Shown in pieces: positions 7,185 to 41,863 of a DNA stretch of 64,000 bases; the first letter of the stretch is position 1, and the number at the start of each line of letters is the position of its first letter. The translations under genes and the position numbers were made by a program. The stretch comes from Phytoactinopolyspora alkaliphila (lineage in GTDB: Bacteria; Actinomycetota; Actinomycetes; Jiangellales; Jiangellaceae). The notes beneath the pieces are model-generated. The model was not told the origin of the DNA. It worked only from the letters and a program-made list of their open reading frames with translations, and ran no database searches. The stretch covers positions 124,001 to 188,000 of the forward strand of contig NZ_JAAGOB010000003.1 in NCBI RefSeq assembly GCF_010550695.1, given 5' to 3'.

Positions 7185-7280
7185 GCCCGTTCCCAACCCC
7201 TGGCATGAGTTATGGCTCCACATTTCCGACATTTCGGACGCGTTAGCGACCCTAACCCATGCCAGGGGTTGGGAACGGGC
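7185..7280. repeat. Palindromic repeat element, copy 1
   Basis: Perfect 23-bp inverted repeat (7185-7207 and 7258-7280, core CCCAACCCCTGGCATG), extended inward with two mismatches around GTTA-GG. The central part includes GGCTCCACATTTC and GCGTTAGCGACC. Related copies lie at 33700-33771 and 41789-41863. It sits between convergent genes and could also end transcription from both sides, but conservation of the loop in the copies marks it as a dispersed element rather than a simple terminator. Confidence 0.85.
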
Positions 7281-13408: not shown

Positions 13409-15100
13409 ATGGCAGCACCGCATCGTGTGCCGGAAGCAAGCTCCACCGTGAACGCGGGCGTGACCCGACGCCGATTCCTCCAGCAGGCGGGCTTCCTCAC
13501 CGCCGGCGGGTTGTCAGCTGGAGCGCTGGGCGTCTCCGTGGCCGGTCCGGCCGGGGCGTCCCAAACGCTGGACCTCACGACTCCCGCCGCATTCGACGCC
13601 TTCGACGCGGCCTATCAGAGCGGAGGCCAGAGCCCGGACAACAACAATGAGGCCGGCGCCCTGGCGTGGCAGCAGTCCTATGCACTGCGCAGCTTCATCA
13701 TGATGTACCTGGCGCATGGGGACACCGACTATCTCGACCGGTTCATCGGCAACGTCGACATCATGCTTACTCACCGGGACAGCGAGCGCGGCGTCACCGA
13801 TTACCGCGGGCTTTCGCTTCCCGCCTGGCGCACGATGAACCCGTACACACTGGGGATCTCCGAGCTTCTCGATGGGAACGGCCAGCCGACGCTGGAGATC
13901 CGCAGCGGGCGGAACTACGCCGACACCGCGCACGTCACCGTCACCCACGGGGCGGGTGACACGTTCTCCCTGGTGGTCCGTAACGAACGGTTCGACTACA
14001 CCGATACGTTCACCGGCCTGACCATGGACCCGTCCAGCCCGGACTACGCGGTCCAGCGCATCTACGACGACTACCCGGGCACCATTCTCTGCACCGCGCA
14101 CGATCAAAACGTGGGCACCCGGCCCGCCGAGGGCAACTACCCCATGTTCGCCCAGCCGGTGATCCTGGGCGTGCACACCGGCATGATCACGTACCCGATC
14201 GCCAGCTTCGTGCGGATCGTCAAGACCGACCCGCAGCTCATCAATGACCAGTACTACCAGGACAAGGCCGACGAGTACCTGGCCGACGTGGAGGCCGCGG
14301 TGGCCGTTCACGACGACGAGTGGCGCGAGACTTCCGACGGCCGTGGCTACTACTTCTGGGAGAAGGGGAAGCCGTTCGGGTTCGACGGCCAGGCCCAGCC
14401 GACGAATCAGAGCCTTGCTCTGGGGCGGACGGTCCTGGAACTGGCTGCGATCACCGGTGACCCGCAGCACGTCCACCGCGCCACCGCCCTGGCCGAGATG
14501 TTCAAGGCGGAGTTGATCGATCAGGTAACCAACGGCGTCACCACGTCGATCTGGTACTACTTCCCGACGTACTCGGCTGCGTGGGAGGGCTACACCAAGA
14601 CCGGCTCGGCGGAGACGGACATCTCCATGCACAAGCCGGAGTATGCGGTCAACGGTGGCTACAAGAACTACGAGGACTACAGCCACGCCGCGATCGACGT
14701 GGACTTCGCCGCGCTGGCGCACCAGCACGGCTACGTCTTCACCAGCCAGGACATCGCGAAGATCGCGGCCACGTTCACCGAGAACCTGGCGGCGACGAAC
14801 GCCGACGGCCGGGCCACTGTCCGCTACGTGGTCAGCGGCCAGGGCGTACTGCAGTCCAACCCGATCGGAGCGGCCCGCTGGATGGCCATCTCGCCGTCGG
14901 ACCCGGATGTCTTCGAGCACTGCCTGGACATCTACGAGGACTGGGACAACCAGCCGACCCCCACCAGCGGCACCCGCCTGCTGGGCGTCGCGATGCTCAA
15001 CTGGGGGGCGTTGCAGGGCGCCGCGAAGGCCCGGAACGCCCGCAGACGAGCAGACCGCCGGCGGGCGGCCCGCTGGGCAGCACGCCAGGAATCCAACTAG
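13409..15100 (+). CDS. Tat-exported protein, possible carbohydrate-active alpha/alpha-toroid enzyme
   Basis: 563 aa. A twin-arginine signal is clear: VTRRRFLQQAGF at about residues 14-25, then a hydrophobic stretch and GPAGAS cleavage region near residue 50. The mature part is helical with Trp/Tyr-rich segments (WQQSYALRSFIMMYLAHGD, YEDYSHAAIDVDFAALA), broken by a beta-rich insert around residues 165-235. The pattern recalls (alpha/alpha)-toroid polysaccharide lyases or C5-epimerases, but I cannot name a family. Signal anchor plus position ahead of a GH20-like gene and an importer suggest extracellular breakdown of a glycan. The C-terminus is Arg-rich. Confidence 0.65.
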   Translation: MAAPHRVPEASSTVNAGVTRRRFLQQAGFLTAGGLSAGALGVSVAGPAGASQTLDLTTPAAFDAFDAAYQSGGQSPDNNNEAGALAWQQSYALRSFIMMYLAHGDTDYLDRFIGNVDIMLTHRDSERGVTDYRGLSLPAWRTMNPYTLGISELLDGNGQPTLEIRSGRNYADTAHVTVTHGAGDTFSLVVRNERFDYTDTFTGLTMDPSSPDYAVQRIYDDYPGTILCTAHDQNVGTRPAEGNYPMFAQPVILGVHTGMITYPIASFVRIVKTDPQLINDQYYQDKADEYLADVEAAVAVHDDEWRETSDGRGYYFWEKGKPFGFDGQAQPTNQSLALGRTVLELAAITGDPQHVHRATALAEMFKAELIDQVTNGVTTSIWYYFPTYSAAWEGYTKTGSAETDISMHKPEYAVNGGYKNYEDYSHAAIDVDFAALAHQHGYVFTSQDIAKIAATFTENLAATNADGRATVRYVVSGQGVLQSNPIGAARWMAISPSDPDVFEHCLDIYEDWDNQPTPTSGTRLLGVAMLNWGALQGAAKARNARRRADRRRAARWAARQESN

Positions 15101-30772: not shown

Positions 30773-31681
30773 TCACACGTAGGCGCTCAGCTCCGCCAGC
30801 CACGGCGCCGCGACGGTCAGGGTGGGCACCGTGACGATGGCAGCGGCGCCGGCGTAGACGGCGGCCGCAAGGGAACGGTGGACCTCGTCGCCCGGGGCGG
30901 CCAGCCGCTGGATCCGGGCCAGTGGTGTCACGCTCCCCGAGCCCATGGCGCCCGCGGGAACCGGGGCGCCGGCCAGCCGGGCCAGAGCGCGTCCGAGCGG
31001 CAGCGCTCCGGTGCGCCGCCGGGCGGCGTCGTCGGCGAGCATCTCCACCAGCCCGGCCGCGGAATCCAGGGCTGCCCGGCTGCGGACCACACGCGGAAAC
31101 GCGTTGTGCAGGGCGGTGAACCCTTCCAGGACGAGGTCGTGGCGGGCCCGGCTGTGGGCGCGCTCGTGTTCGAGGACCGCGCGCAGTTCGTCGTCGCCGA
31201 GAGCTTCCAGGGCGGAAGAGGAGACCACCAGGCGGGACTGGAGGCCCGGCACACAGTACGCGAACGGCGACGGCGCCTCGAGAATGTGCGCGCCCGGGGC
31301 CCGGCGGTCGTCGCGGCCGAGGAGGTCCACCAGCTGGCGGTGGCGCCGGCGGCGGGCCCGAAGGCTTACTCCGAGCGTGTGCGCGGACCACAACAGCCGG
31401 GCCAGCACGAGCACGGTGAAGGCGAACGCGAGACCGTGCAGGATCAGCATGCCGGTTCCGGGCCGCTCATTGAGCACGGCCAGGGTACCCACCGACAGTC
31501 CGGCGCCGAGCGCGGAGAGTAGAGCTGCCAGCGCGAGCGCCTGCCACAGGACCAGCGCGGCTCGGGGCACCCGGCTCGGCCACGCCGAGCGGGCCAACCA
31601 GGCGGGCGCGGGGCCGGCGAGGACCAGAGCCAGCGCGGTCAGGATCAGCGGAGTGGCGGCGCCCGACCCGAAGCCGATCAC
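30773..31681 (-). CDS. M56-family (BlaR1-like) membrane metalloprotease
   Basis: 302-aa integral membrane protein, N-terminal and C-terminal TM helices around a cytoplasmic zinc domain. LEHERAHSRARHD holds the HExxH-type site (HERAH). It lacks the extracellular penicillin-sensor domain of BlaR1, so the signal is unknown. GTG start overlaps the blaI-like stop (GTGA). In such pairs the protease inactivates the repressor when a stimulus arrives. Confidence 0.88.
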   Translation of the reverse strand: MIGFGSGAATPLILTALALVLAGPAPAWLARSAWPSRVPRAALVLWQALALAALLSALGAGLSVGTLAVLNERPGTGMLILHGLAFAFTVLVLARLLWSAHTLGVSLRARRRRHRQLVDLLGRDDRRAPGAHILEAPSPFAYCVPGLQSRLVVSSSALEALGDDELRAVLEHERAHSRARHDLVLEGFTALHNAFPRVVRSRAALDSAAGLVEMLADDAARRRTGALPLGRALARLAGAPVPAGAMGSGSVTPLARIQRLAAPGDEVHRSLAAAVYAGAAAIVTVPTLTVAAPWLAELSAYV

Positions 31682-32070
31682 GACGACGTCTCGCGGCGTG
31701 CGATCTCCGCGAGCGCGGCGCGCAGGGCGGCGGCGTCGTCGGCGGAGGCGGTGTCGATGAAGCGGACCAGCGCGGAGGCGCGATCGGCGCCGTCCACCGT
31801 ACCGAGGGCCTCGTGCATGAGCTCGGCGGTGAGCTCGTCACGAGTGAACGCCGGCCGGTAGAGGTAGGCGCGGCCGTCCCGCAGCTGCTGTACCGAGCCC
31901 TTCTTGGCGAGCCGGTCGAGGACTGTCATGACCGTCGTGTAAGCGATCTCACGGGTGGAGCTGAGCGCCTCGTGCACCTGGCGGACGGTGGCGGCGTCGT
32001 CACGGGACCACAGGTACTCCATCGCCGCGCGTTCGAGTTCACCCAGCTGGGTGCGTCGTCCTTGAGCCAC
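31678..32070 (-). CDS. BlaI/MecI/CopY-family repressor
   Basis: 130 aa. wHTH LGELERAAMEYLWSRDDAATVRQVHEAL, then YTTVMTVLDRLAKKGSVQQL as recognition part, and a C-terminal dimerisation region. The start is GTG 32070, with a perfect TATACT -10 box six bases upstream and no Shine-Dalgarno, so the mRNA is probably leaderless. Divergent from cydA with operator-like repeats between. Probably represses itself, the protease gene and cydAB. Confidence 0.9.
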   Translation of the reverse strand: MAQGRRTQLGELERAAMEYLWSRDDAATVRQVHEALSSTREIAYTTVMTVLDRLAKKGSVQQLRDGRAYLYRPAFTRDELTAELMHEALGTVDGADRASALVRFIDTASADDAAALRAALAEIARRETSS

Positions 32071-32076
32071 CTGGCC

Positions 32077-32082
32077 AGTATA
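32077..32082 (-). promoter_or_regulatory. -10 element of the blaI-like gene
   Basis: TATACT on the minus strand, six bases ahead of the GTG start. The -35 position falls in the palindrome at 32096-32114, so repressor binding would block RNA polymerase. Confidence 0.65.
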
Positions 32083-32095
32083 CCTACCGCACGTA

Positions 32096-32155
32096 GTACG
32101 ACGGCGCGTCGTACAAATCTACGACGCGATGTAGTATCTACGACGTAGCGTAGTA
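32096..32155. promoter_or_regulatory. Triple operator array between blaI-like gene and cydA
   Basis: Three adjacent symmetric boxes: GTACGACG-GCG-CGTCGTAC (perfect, 32096-32114), ATCTACGACGCGATGTAGT (32117-32135) and ATCTACGACGTAGCGTAGTA (32136-32155). The last two are direct repeats with 19-bp period and contain TAC...GTA symmetry like BlaI/CopY operators. They cover the blaI -35 area and a possible cydA -10 (TAGTAT at 32133). Confidence 0.7.
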
Positions 32156-32212
32156 AGAGTGCGCTGATGCTGGCCTTGGCCAGGCGCGACAACGTTCGGA
32201 AGGGACCGGCCC

Positions 32213-33688
32213 GTGGATGTGCTCGACCTCGCGCGGTGGCAATTCGGGATCACGACGGTGGTGCACTTCTTCTTCGTGCCGTTCACCATCTCCATGGCGT
32301 TCCTCGTCGCCATCATGCAGACGGCATGGATGCGAACCCAGAACGAGCGGTGGCTGCGGCTCACCAAGTTCTTCGGCAAGCTGCTCCTGGTCAACCTGGC
32401 TGTGGGGGTCGTCACCGGGCTGGTTCAGGAGTTCCAGTTCGGGCTGAACTGGAGTGACTTCAGCCGGTTCGTGGGTGACATTTTCGGCGCGCCGCTGGCG
32501 ATGGAGGCGCTGCTGGCCTTCTATCTGGAATCCGTCTTCGTGGGGGTGTGGATCTTCGGCTGGGGCCGGATACCGCCCAAGATCCATCTCGCCACCATCT
32601 GGGTGACGGCGTGCGCCACGCTGCTGTCCGCGTACTTCATCCTGGCAGCCAACTCGTTCATGCAGAACCCGGTGGGATACCGGATCAACGAGGAGGCCGG
32701 CCGGGCCGAGCTCACCGACATCTGGGCTGTGCTCACCAACAAGGTGACCCTCATCACCTTCCCGCACACCCTGTTCGCGGCCTTCATGGTCGGCGGGGCG
32801 GTCGTCGCGGCGGTCGCGATGTTGCACCTGGTGAAGGGCCGGCGCGACCCGGTGACGGCCGCGCCTGAGGCTGCGAGCGATGCCGGTGCCTTCCGCTCCG
32901 CGCTGCGCATCGGTGCTGTCGCCGTGCTGATCGGCGGCGTCGGCACGGCCATCACCGGTGACCTGCAGGGAAAGGTCATGACCGAGGTGCAGCCGATGAA
33001 GATGGCGGCTGCCGAGGCCCTCTACGAGACCGAGCAGCCGGCTCCGTTCTCACTGTTCACCGTCGGCACGTTGGACGGCAGCAGGGCACTGTACTCGATC
33101 GAGATCCCGCAGCTGCTGTCCTTTCTCTCCACCGGCTCGTTCGAAGGGGAGGTGCGAGGGATCAACGACATTCAGGAGGAGTACGAGGAGCTCTACGGGC
33201 CGGGCGACTACGCGCCGAACATCCCGGTCACCTACTGGACGTTCCGCTTCATGGTCGGATGCGGTGGTCTGGCGGCCGCGATCGCCGCGTGGATGCTGTG
33301 GACCACCAGGCGAGGCAGCGTGCCGGGGTCGGTGTGGATGCTGCGAGCCGCGGCCGTCCTGCCGTTCCTGCCGCTGGCGGCGAACTCGTTCGGGTGGATC
33401 TTCACCGAGATGGGCCGGCAACCGTGGCTGGTGTTCGGTTTGATGCCCACCGCGTCGGGGATCACGCCGGGATCCACGGCCGGGAGCGTGTTCGCGACGT
33501 TGTCCGCCTTCACCGTGCTGTACGCCGGGCTGACCTGGCTGTGGATCTGGCTTCTGGTCAAGCATGCGCGACCGGGGCTGCCCGACGTGAGCGCCGAGGC
33601 GGACTGGGGTCGTCGTCGTTCCCGGGACGTCGCGGGGACCGGCCGCGACGATGACGACGCCGACCGCCCCCTGATGTTCGCCTACTGA
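32213..33688 (+). CDS. cydA: Cytochrome bd ubiquinol/menaquinol oxidase subunit I
   Basis: 491 aa, nine TM helices expected. Heme ligands are visible: His18 (TTVVHFFFVP), the His of FPHTLFAAFM (heme b595/b558 region) and Met of TEMGRQPW (heme b558). LEAxL-type GAPLAMEALLAFYLES holds the conserved Glu. The Q loop is short, as in non-proteobacterial enzymes. It reduces O2 at low oxygen in the membrane. GTG 32213 with GGAAGGGA upstream. A palindromic repeat lies between it and cydB. Confidence 0.96.
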   Translation: MDVLDLARWQFGITTVVHFFFVPFTISMAFLVAIMQTAWMRTQNERWLRLTKFFGKLLLVNLAVGVVTGLVQEFQFGLNWSDFSRFVGDIFGAPLAMEALLAFYLESVFVGVWIFGWGRIPPKIHLATIWVTACATLLSAYFILAANSFMQNPVGYRINEEAGRAELTDIWAVLTNKVTLITFPHTLFAAFMVGGAVVAAVAMLHLVKGRRDPVTAAPEAASDAGAFRSALRIGAVAVLIGGVGTAITGDLQGKVMTEVQPMKMAAAEALYETEQPAPFSLFTVGTLDGSRALYSIEIPQLLSFLSTGSFEGEVRGINDIQEEYEELYGPGDYAPNIPVTYWTFRFMVGCGGLAAAIAAWMLWTTRRGSVPGSVWMLRAAAVLPFLPLAANSFGWIFTEMGRQPWLVFGLMPTASGITPGSTAGSVFATLSAFTVLYAGLTWLWIWLLVKHARPGLPDVSAEADWGRRRSRDVAGTGRDDDDADRPLMFAY

Positions 33689-33694
33689 AACTTC

Positions 33695-33773
33695 CCCAAC
33701 CCCTGGCATGGGTTAAGGCTCCACAAAGCGGACAAATCGGGCACGATAGCGACCTTAACCCATGCCAGGGGGC
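33695..33773. repeat. Palindromic repeat element, copy 2 (between cydA and cydB)
   Basis: Perfect 19-bp inverted repeat CCCCTGGCATGGGTTAAGG (33700-33718 and 33753-33771). The core GGCTCCACA and ATAGCGACCTTAACC match copy 1. It starts 7 bp after the cydA stop and ends about 22 bp before the cydB start, so it lies inside the expected operon. Confidence 0.88.
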
Positions 33774-33795
33774 GAGATGATTGGAACGGTGTCAT

Positions 33796-34797
33796 ATGGA
33801 TCTGGCGACGCTGTGGTTCGCCCTCGTGGCGGTGCTCTGGGTCGGCTACCTGGCTTTGGAGGGCTTCGACTTCGGGGTCGGCATGCTGACCCGGGGCTTC
33901 GCGCGGGACGACCGGGAACGACGTGTTCTGATCAACACCATCGGACCCGTCTGGGACGGCAACGAGGTGTGGATGATCACCGCGGTCGGGGCCACATTCG
34001 CGGCGTTCCCCGAGTGGTACGCGACGGCGTGGTCCGCCTACTACCTGCCGCTGGTCGTGGTCCTGATCGCGTTGATCCTGCGCGGCCTGGCGTTCGAGTA
34101 CCGGGCCAAGAACGACACCGAGCGGTGGCGTCGCTGGTGGGACCGGGCGATCTTCTGGGGGTCGGCGGCGCCGGCGTTTCTCTGGGGCGTGCTCCTGGCC
34201 GGATTCGCGCAGGGCCTCCCGCTCGACGCGCGGCACGACTTCGTCGGTGGCATGGCGGACATCTTCACGCCGTACACGATGCTCGGCGGCGTCGTGACGC
34301 TCCTGCTCTCGCTTCTCCACGGCGCGCACTACGTCGCGCTCAAGACCGTCGGGGAGATACGTGCCCGGGCGCGTGAGCTCGCGGGACGCGTGGGTGCGCT
34401 CGCCGCGGTGGCCGTCGCCGGCTTCGTCCTGTGGACCGTCGGCACCGCAGCGGGAATGTCGCCGTGGATCGGCTGGGTGGGCGGCATCGCCGCGGTCACC
34501 CTGGTGGGCGCCGCCCGCAGGCTGACCGGGCGCGGCCGGGAAGGCTGGGCGTTCATCGCGACCTTCGGCGCGATCGCGTTCGTCGGGGTGACGCTGTTCG
34601 GCACCCTGTATCCAGAAGTCCTCCCGTCGACGCTCGACGCGGCCGACAGCCTGACGGTGCACAACGCGTCGTCGACCGACTACACCCTGACCGTCATGAC
34701 CTGGGTGGCGGTGCCGTTCATTCCTGTCGTGCTCGCCTACCAGAGCTGGGTCTACTGGATGTTCCGCAGCCGGATCGGCGTCCAGCACATCCCGTGA
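33796..34797 (+). CDS. cydB: Cytochrome bd oxidase subunit II
   Basis: 333 aa, multi-spanning. N-terminal LWFALVAVLWVGYLALEGFDFGVGML, GPVWDGNEVWMITA and RGLAFEYRAK are family signatures. ATG 33796 has GGAACGG about 7 bp upstream; a TTG further up is unlikely. cydCD assembly transporter genes are not adjacent, so they must be elsewhere if present. Confidence 0.95.
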   Translation: MDLATLWFALVAVLWVGYLALEGFDFGVGMLTRGFARDDRERRVLINTIGPVWDGNEVWMITAVGATFAAFPEWYATAWSAYYLPLVVVLIALILRGLAFEYRAKNDTERWRRWWDRAIFWGSAAPAFLWGVLLAGFAQGLPLDARHDFVGGMADIFTPYTMLGGVVTLLLSLLHGAHYVALKTVGEIRARARELAGRVGALAAVAVAGFVLWTVGTAAGMSPWIGWVGGIAAVTLVGAARRLTGRGREGWAFIATFGAIAFVGVTLFGTLYPEVLPSTLDAADSLTVHNASSTDYTLTVMTWVAVPFIPVVLAYQSWVYWMFRSRIGVQHIP

Positions 34798-41788: not shown

Positions 41789-41863
41789 CATGCCAGGGGT
41801 TGGGGTCGCTGGCGAGGGCGTTATATCCGAAATGTGGAGCCGTAACCCATGCGAGGCGCGGGA
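41789..41863. repeat. Palindromic repeat element, copy 3 (diverged, inverted)
   Basis: Reverse-oriented relative of copies 1 and 2: GCATGCCAGGGGTTGGGG on one side and the complement of CGCATGGGTTACGGCTCCAC on the other, with GGCTCCACATTTC shared. Arms are less symmetric, so this copy is decaying. Between ispE and the ABC-F gene. Confidence 0.75.

Follow-up and report, generated by a model that had tools for sequence, protein, structure and literature searches.

Pairs of a BlaI repressor and a BlaR membrane protease are usually read as regulators of antibiotic resistance, and cytochrome bd is a backup respiratory oxidase that serves when oxygen or copper is scarce or in the presence of respiratory drugs. 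Mycobacterial BlaI is stated to bind the cytochrome bd and ATP synthase promoters (excerpts of PMC5473688, citing Sala 2009), and the mycobacterial BlaR is without a drug sensor, its mode of sensing being stated as unknown in the same excerpts. In Streptomyces cydA is repressed by Rex, which responds to respiratory state (excerpts of PMC7739888). The locus described here lies in a window of 64,000 nucleotides from Phytoactinopolyspora alkaliphila (contig NZ_JAAGOB010000003.1, positions 124,001 to 188,000; coordinates without a genome or locus label are those of the window), in which the genes for a BlaI-type repressor and a membrane protease stand head to head with cydAB. The resistance-type switch appears here to be wired to cytochrome bd, and the reading that it controls respiration genes is given, as a whole, a probability of about 80%.

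The repressor gene blaI (31678..32070, minus strand) encodes a winged-helix protein of 130 amino acids (aa). The protease gene (30773..31681, minus strand), whose start overlaps the 3' end of blaI by 4 bases, encodes a sensorless BlaR1-like membrane metalloprotease of 302 aa, recognised by its HERAH and EMLADDAA motifs, a family alignment and a structure model. Divergent from this pair, back to back on the plus strand, are cydA, encoding subunit I of the bd oxidase (32213..33688, GTG start; PF01654, E 2e-158), and cydB, encoding subunit II (about 33796..34797; PF02322, E 1e-104; TIGR00203 over its cut-off). Pfam matches and coordinates bear out the arrangement originally predicted, a BlaI-like repressor and a protease facing cydAB. 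The nearest named relative found for the locus was Phytoactinopolyspora halotolerans, placed in the Jiangellaceae in the tree output.

The repressor matched Penicillinase_R (PF03965) over residues 9-121 with 100.2 bits against a cut-off of 22.6 (E 1.2e-28), and was the sole PF03965 match in a profile search of the 5.5-Mb genome. Its closest solved chain in the PDB was 2g9w (E 2.8e-36), which we take to be the structure of M. tuberculosis BlaI (Rv1846c). Residue F104, invariant in 15/15 rows, aligned with F102 of S. aureus BlaI, presumably the cut site of that protein. Within NCBIfam the best match was CopY_TcrY, which raises the alternative of a CopY-type copper or redox-metal repressor that is freed directly, without proteolysis, when copper is lost for the haem-copper oxidase; an oxidase free of copper would make sense as its target. 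That match reached 44.3 bits, far under the cut-off of 121.95. CopY/TcrY copper repressors carry a cysteine metal site, and the repressor sequence has zero cysteines. The protease gene is moreover kept beside blaI in 79/80 loci of a named set of BlaI loci, the exception being cut by a contig end. A copper repressor is given hardly any weight.

The gap between blaI and cydA contains three perfect dyads of the form TACGAC-N5-GT(A/C)GTA: box 1, TACGACGGCGCGTCGTA (32097..32113), box 2, TACGACGCGATGTAGTA (32120..32136), and box 3, TACGACGTAGCGTAGTA (32139..32155), none of them assigned a strand. The three adjacent TAC-GTA symmetric boxes that had been proposed were recovered. The box pattern, TACKACNNNNNGTMGTA (TACKAC-N5-GTMGTA), was written from the boxes of the window plus those of relatives, and all three are exact matches, meaning full matches to this 17-base-pair (bp) dyad of 6-5-6 geometry. 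Boxes 2 and 3 are spaced 19 bp start to start and lie on the cydA side of the gap. Exact matches numbered four in the genome of 5,506,198 bases, three of them at blaI-cydA, and a reversed control pattern gave two matches in the same genome. From the density of single matches, three boxes within 60 bp anywhere would be expected by chance about 6e-11 to 2e-9 times per genome. In all likelihood the three dyads are BlaI operators. Candidate promoter elements were placed by sequence position only. For blaI a candidate -10, TATACT (32077..32082, minus strand), would put the -35 under box 1, provided that this hexamer (32082-32077, minus) is the -10 and that the spacer is 17. On the plus strand two hexamers are possible cydA -10 elements: TAGTAT (32132-32137), overlapped by the end of box 2, and TAGTAA (32151-32156), overlapped by that of box 3.

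Conservation was followed in a class sample of 148 genomes (83 with BlaI, 97 with CydA, 73 with both) and in the named set of 80 BlaI loci, which is separate from the class sample but partly overlaps it. Two pairs are identical at the locus, G107 with L166 and G090 with L096, and the tree shows a match between G092 and L132; because these loci coincide, counts from the two sets are not independent. In the family to which the window belongs, blaI was divergent from cydA in 11/11 genomes of the class sample, with two boxes in the gap (genera g3 and g4) or three (g1, the genus of the window, and g2). All 15 cyd-linked intergenic regions compared, that of the window included, held exact boxes. Nine further genomes of the family each had one cluster of two or three boxes, counted by the box pattern alone, together with one box near the gene of a small membrane protein, SMP-A, discussed below; two incomplete genomes of the family (G149 and G150) had zero exact boxes.

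Of the 73 class-sample genomes that carry both, at least 26 have blaI and cydA divergent within 300 bp, a count that leaves out three f18 genomes with the pair 0.6-0.9 kb apart. The gap held an exact TACKAC box in 18 of these 26 pairs, and the remaining 8/8 (families f3, f18 and f36) had one to three exact copies of a variant, TTCTAC-N5-GTAGAA, with the same 6-5-6 geometry and, in f18, a 19-bp spacing. CydA of f18 is 33-36% identical to that of the window. On our reading the repressor and its operator may have drifted together in the families with the variant.

Among the named loci cydA was divergent from blaI in 18/80. These come from Phytoactinopolyspora, an actinomycete metagenome-assembled genome (MAG), four Nocardioides, Desertihabitans, Microlunatus, Avipropionibacterium, five Kribbella, one 'Streptomyces' record that groups with Kribbella, Kineosporia, Actinomycetospora and Ruania. 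An exact box was present in 17 of the 18, the remaining one being Ruania, of which only about 190 bp upstream of blaI were covered. In the BlaI tree, built from few columns and with many weak forks, the labels for cyd linkage required three changes, and 0/500 shuffles gave a number as low. Such a distribution only suggests that the linkage is ancestral and was later lost. Two record labels disagreed with the tree: L135, a 'Bifidobacterium breve' MAG contig, fell among Mycobacteriaceae, and L168, a 'Streptomyces' contig, among Kribbella; both are probably mislabelled or contaminated records.

An exact box stood upstream of blaI in 67/80 named loci, which fits autoregulation, and in 50 of the 62 that are not cyd-linked. 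The latter count is what would be expected if BlaI and its protease regulated only themselves, and perhaps unlinked resistance genes, with cydAB as a mere neighbour and the shared gap a coincidence. Three observations oppose this. First, the box also occurs at cydA where blaI lies elsewhere: of the 73 genomes that carry both genes, 29 have it no more than 70 bp before the start of the matched cydA, and in 11 of these 29 blaI is not adjacent to cydA. Family f4 is the clearest group, its 9/9 genomes having blaI apart from cydA and an exact box upstream of the matched cydA, 16-67 bp from its start; the nearest named loci are those of Mycobacterium (G003, G049, G066, G082), Nocardia (G031, G107, G118) and Gordonia (G129, G139). 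Genomes G048 and G095 have two boxes each at cydA with blaI not adjacent. Second, the box at cydA was seen in 0 of 24 cydA genomes without a BlaI match (14 of them have no exact box anywhere, 10 have one elsewhere); the comparison with the BlaI-bearing genomes (29/73) gives a Fisher p of 4e-5, a value in which independence is overstated, the genomes being related. Third, in the window itself the cydA side of the gap carries boxes 2 and 3. A bystander role for cydAB is accordingly regarded as highly improbable. In G095 a BlaI-type gene was also noted about 1.1 kb ahead of a CydA-like gene in the same direction (G095:C1:3502508-3504630; matched over residues 1-216 only), which suggests another pairing of BlaI with an oxidase.

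The original prediction had advised searching for the box upstream of other genes, and the search gave matches at SMP-B, SMP-A, atpI, DUF3817 and DUF4383 genes. The fourth exact box of the genome is intergenic, 49 bp before the gene of SMP-B (L042:6113-6490, G000:C31), a predicted membrane protein of 125 aa with no Pfam match over cut-off. The box precedes SMP-B in the genome of the window and in G102, and no box was found before SMP-B of G158. SMP-A is a small membrane protein, about 118 residues long and predicted to have four helices. Among the 20 members of the window's family with a clear copy, 18 have the box before it, the other two being the incomplete G149 and G150; G031, G107 and G121 have the box there as well. 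SMP-A was not found in the genome of the window, where the box stands before SMP-B instead. The SMP-A sequence gave no Pfam or NCBIfam match over cut-off, and a single-sequence structure model was too poor to use (predicted local distance difference test, pLDDT, 63). In a Saccharomonospora locus (L142:5276-5650) the SMP-A gene comes next after the protease gene, and an exact box separates the two. As a strict partner of BlaI SMP-A was ruled out, since 81/148 class-sample genomes have it, including several that lack BlaI.

The Mycobacterium-like genomes served as a positive control. A box was found 222-236 bp upstream of atpI in three of the four; atpI of G049 is over the Pfam ATP-synt_I cut-off and is followed by a gene read as atpB, and the other two atpI genes were recognised by similarity. 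For the fourth genome, G082, two of its three other sites were examined and showed no box at atpI. Binding of BlaI to the Rv1303 promoter has been reported by gel shift (excerpts of PMC12565901). Within f4, 20 of the 24 exact boxes that lie away from both cydA and blaI were examined. Nine preceded genes for atpI (3), SMP-A (2), DUF3817 (2) or DUF4383 (2), two preceded single other genes, and nine were inside open reading frames (ORFs) or unclear and are probably due to chance. Boxes before DUF3817 genes were seen in G049, G139 and G078, and before DUF4383 genes in G066 and G049. Conservation, as read from these sequences, shows a BlaI-box regulon.

Sites with one mismatch numbered 14 in the genome of the window. 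Eight are inside Pfam-supported genes, four are unclear (L255, L259, L261, L262), and two more are in long frames taken without a profile check, one at position 14555 of the window and one in a frame that we read as excinuclease-like. The site at L261:1380-1396 (G000:C1:522879-522895) may be intergenic, with a DUF4349 gene on one side and an amine-oxidase gene, divergent from it, on the other, and is a possible weak extra target of BlaI.

Cleavage of the repressor would fall to the adjacent protease. In an alignment of 31 rows its H172, E173, H176 and E213 were invariant, and HExxH and E..AD..A were found in the blaI-neighbouring protease of 77/80 named loci (of the rest, one is cut and two were unparsed). 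The structure model (pLDDT 91.4) has the HExxH region flanked by helices on both sides and ends with a helix at 265-301 of the 302 residues. Because the model ends in this C-terminal helix there is no room for an outside sensor, and neither sequence nor model of the 302-aa protein has a C-terminal extracellular penicillin sensor, in agreement with the earlier description of a protease without a penicillin-sensor domain. In VIA-align the BlaR1 chains came first (Z 12.0, root-mean-square deviation 5.2, 218 residues, model residues 11-252, helices and protease together), and two M48 proteases, BepA (Z 10.3) and ZMPSTE24 (Z 9.9), covered the protease part only; with helical proteins a Z below about 13 does not settle the matter.

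The proposed mechanism is as follows. Dimers of BlaI on the three tandem 6-5-6 dyads would repress both divergent promoters, that of blaI and the protease gene and that of cydAB. A change linked with respiration or with the energisation of the membrane would activate the membrane protease, which would cut BlaI and leave the operators empty, so that cytochrome bd, repressor and protease would be made together; once the stress is over, new BlaI would restore repression. SMP-B, behind the one other exact box of the genome, would join the same regulon. Repression of cydAB by BlaI is very likely, because the divergent pair, the operator geometry and the box at cydA with blaI elsewhere are all conserved, and by the same conservation the control of cydAB that had been predicted is strongly supported. 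Relief of repression by cleavage is probable, given that a protease with the catalytic motif is encoded and that the Phe aligned with the cut site is conserved.

As to the signal, a regulon of bd oxidase, mycobacterial ATP synthase and small membrane proteins is more suggestive of membrane energetics than of a drug, and a respiratory or energetic signal is somewhat favoured over a beta-lactam. Were this instead a classical beta-lactam-inducible system, cell-wall damage would trigger the protease and cydAB would be dragged along, with the bd oxidase as a tolerance factor. Amoxicillin-clavulanate does raise the blaR-blaI and cydAB transcripts of mycobacteria (excerpts of PMC5473688). Cell-wall damage also disturbs respiration, so that beta-lactam and respiratory signals overlap, and the response of M. 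tuberculosis to amoxicillin-clavulanate fits both readings alike. The protease without a penicillin-sensor domain speaks against a classical system, as does the one further exact box of the genome, which precedes a small membrane protein and not a beta-lactamase; no beta-lactamase or penicillin-binding protein (PBP) gene was found under an exact box in this genome, the boxes being only at blaI/cydA and SMP-B. A beta-lactam-inducible system is considered unlikely.

Several points weigh against control of respiration genes by a BlaI-type switch. No exact box at cydA was found in 44 of the 73 genomes with both genes (36 when the 8 carriers of the variant are set aside), so the link between BlaI and cydA is not universal; all sampled genomes of f17 and f19 are among those without it. 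The counts of the TTCTAC variant are given without a genome-wide chance control. It had been predicted that the boxes cover the -35 of blaI and a likely -10 of cydA; their positions fit the candidate elements, but a consensus scan of promoters and terminators gave no sigma70-like promoter and no terminator, so the promoters are placed by inference. The naming of the protease as M56 held in part. Its HExxH and Glu motifs agree with BlaR1, and the best VIA-align alignments of the model, at a Z that is not decisive, are to BlaR1 chains, but the only Pfam match was PF01435 (M48, E 1.1e-7), and the Pfam M56 model, which we take to be PF05569, gave no match at E up to 0.001. Foldseek also ranked Ste24 chains ahead of BlaR1, with no E below 0.001. 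'BlaR1-like' thus describes a layout and, on the model, a probable fold, not a Pfam family. The induction of M. smegmatis cydAB under respiratory inhibition has been assigned to Crp and SigF, and zero mentions of BlaI were counted in that study (PMC7739888). For this organism the evidence consists of comparisons of sequences and structure models.

Two further features of the locus were noted. The gap between cydA and cydB contains a hairpin element (33701..33770, no strand) that has perfect arms of 18 bp and folds strongly as RNA (z -3.9). This 70-bp element recurs in the window as a near copy at 7198-7267 and a partial copy at 41840-41857, and is probably a small mobile palindromic repeat or an mRNA-processing element. 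A second CydA-like gene is present elsewhere in the genome (G000:C4:106091-106852; 44% identity over residues 2-268) and is without an exact box.

In the parts of the open-licence PMC literature that were searched, no paper was recognised that describes blaI as a neighbour of cydAB or the conservation of this layout. Set against the same partial literature, the mycobacterial precedent is known, and the head-to-head layout of blaI and cydAB with its conserved regulon appears to be new. The conserved operator offers a directly testable promoter, outside pathogens, for how a sensorless BlaR works, and it suggests that the circuit includes SMP-A, whose family of membrane proteins is uncharacterised. 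Respiration may also be what the BlaI system served first. A broader and doubtful extension would be an ancestral actinobacterial proteolytic sensor of respiratory state, in which the sensorless protease reads the energetic or quinol state of the membrane, directly or via SMP-A (or its replacement SMP-B), and BlaI sets the balance of cytochrome bd and ATP synthase; control of beta-lactamase, as in M. tuberculosis, would then be a late addition.

The Streptomyces Rex-cydAB system resembles the locus in having an actinobacterial cydA repressor tied to respiratory state. Rex there senses NADH/NAD+ directly, whereas cydA of the window has no site like a Rex operator nearby: none was found near cydA within 3 mismatches of the Rex operator consensus, and three such sites were found elsewhere in the window. 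A Rex-type domain is encoded elsewhere in the genome. Together these fit the earlier suggestion of a switch in place of Rex, and the BlaI switch may stand in for Rex at the cydA promoter.

With the BlaR1-BlaI and MecR1-MecI systems of Staphylococcus the locus shares a winged-helix repressor with Phe at the aligned cleavage position, an adjacent membrane gluzincin protease and an operator in the system's own promoter. It differs from them in having no extracellular penicillin-binding sensor and in facing an oxidase gene, not one for beta-lactamase or PBP2a.

Likeness extends further with BlaI/BlaR of M. tuberculosis (Rv1846c/Rv1845c), which provides the closest solved relative of the repressor (2g9w, by its presumed identity) and likewise has a sensorless BlaR; in the Mycobacterium-like genomes the same box stands at cydA and, in 3/4 of them, at atpI. 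In those genomes blaI lies apart from cydA, and blaC is a reported target in M. tuberculosis. In the window, by contrast, blaI and cydAB face away from each other across three tandem operators, and the genome has only one further exact box.

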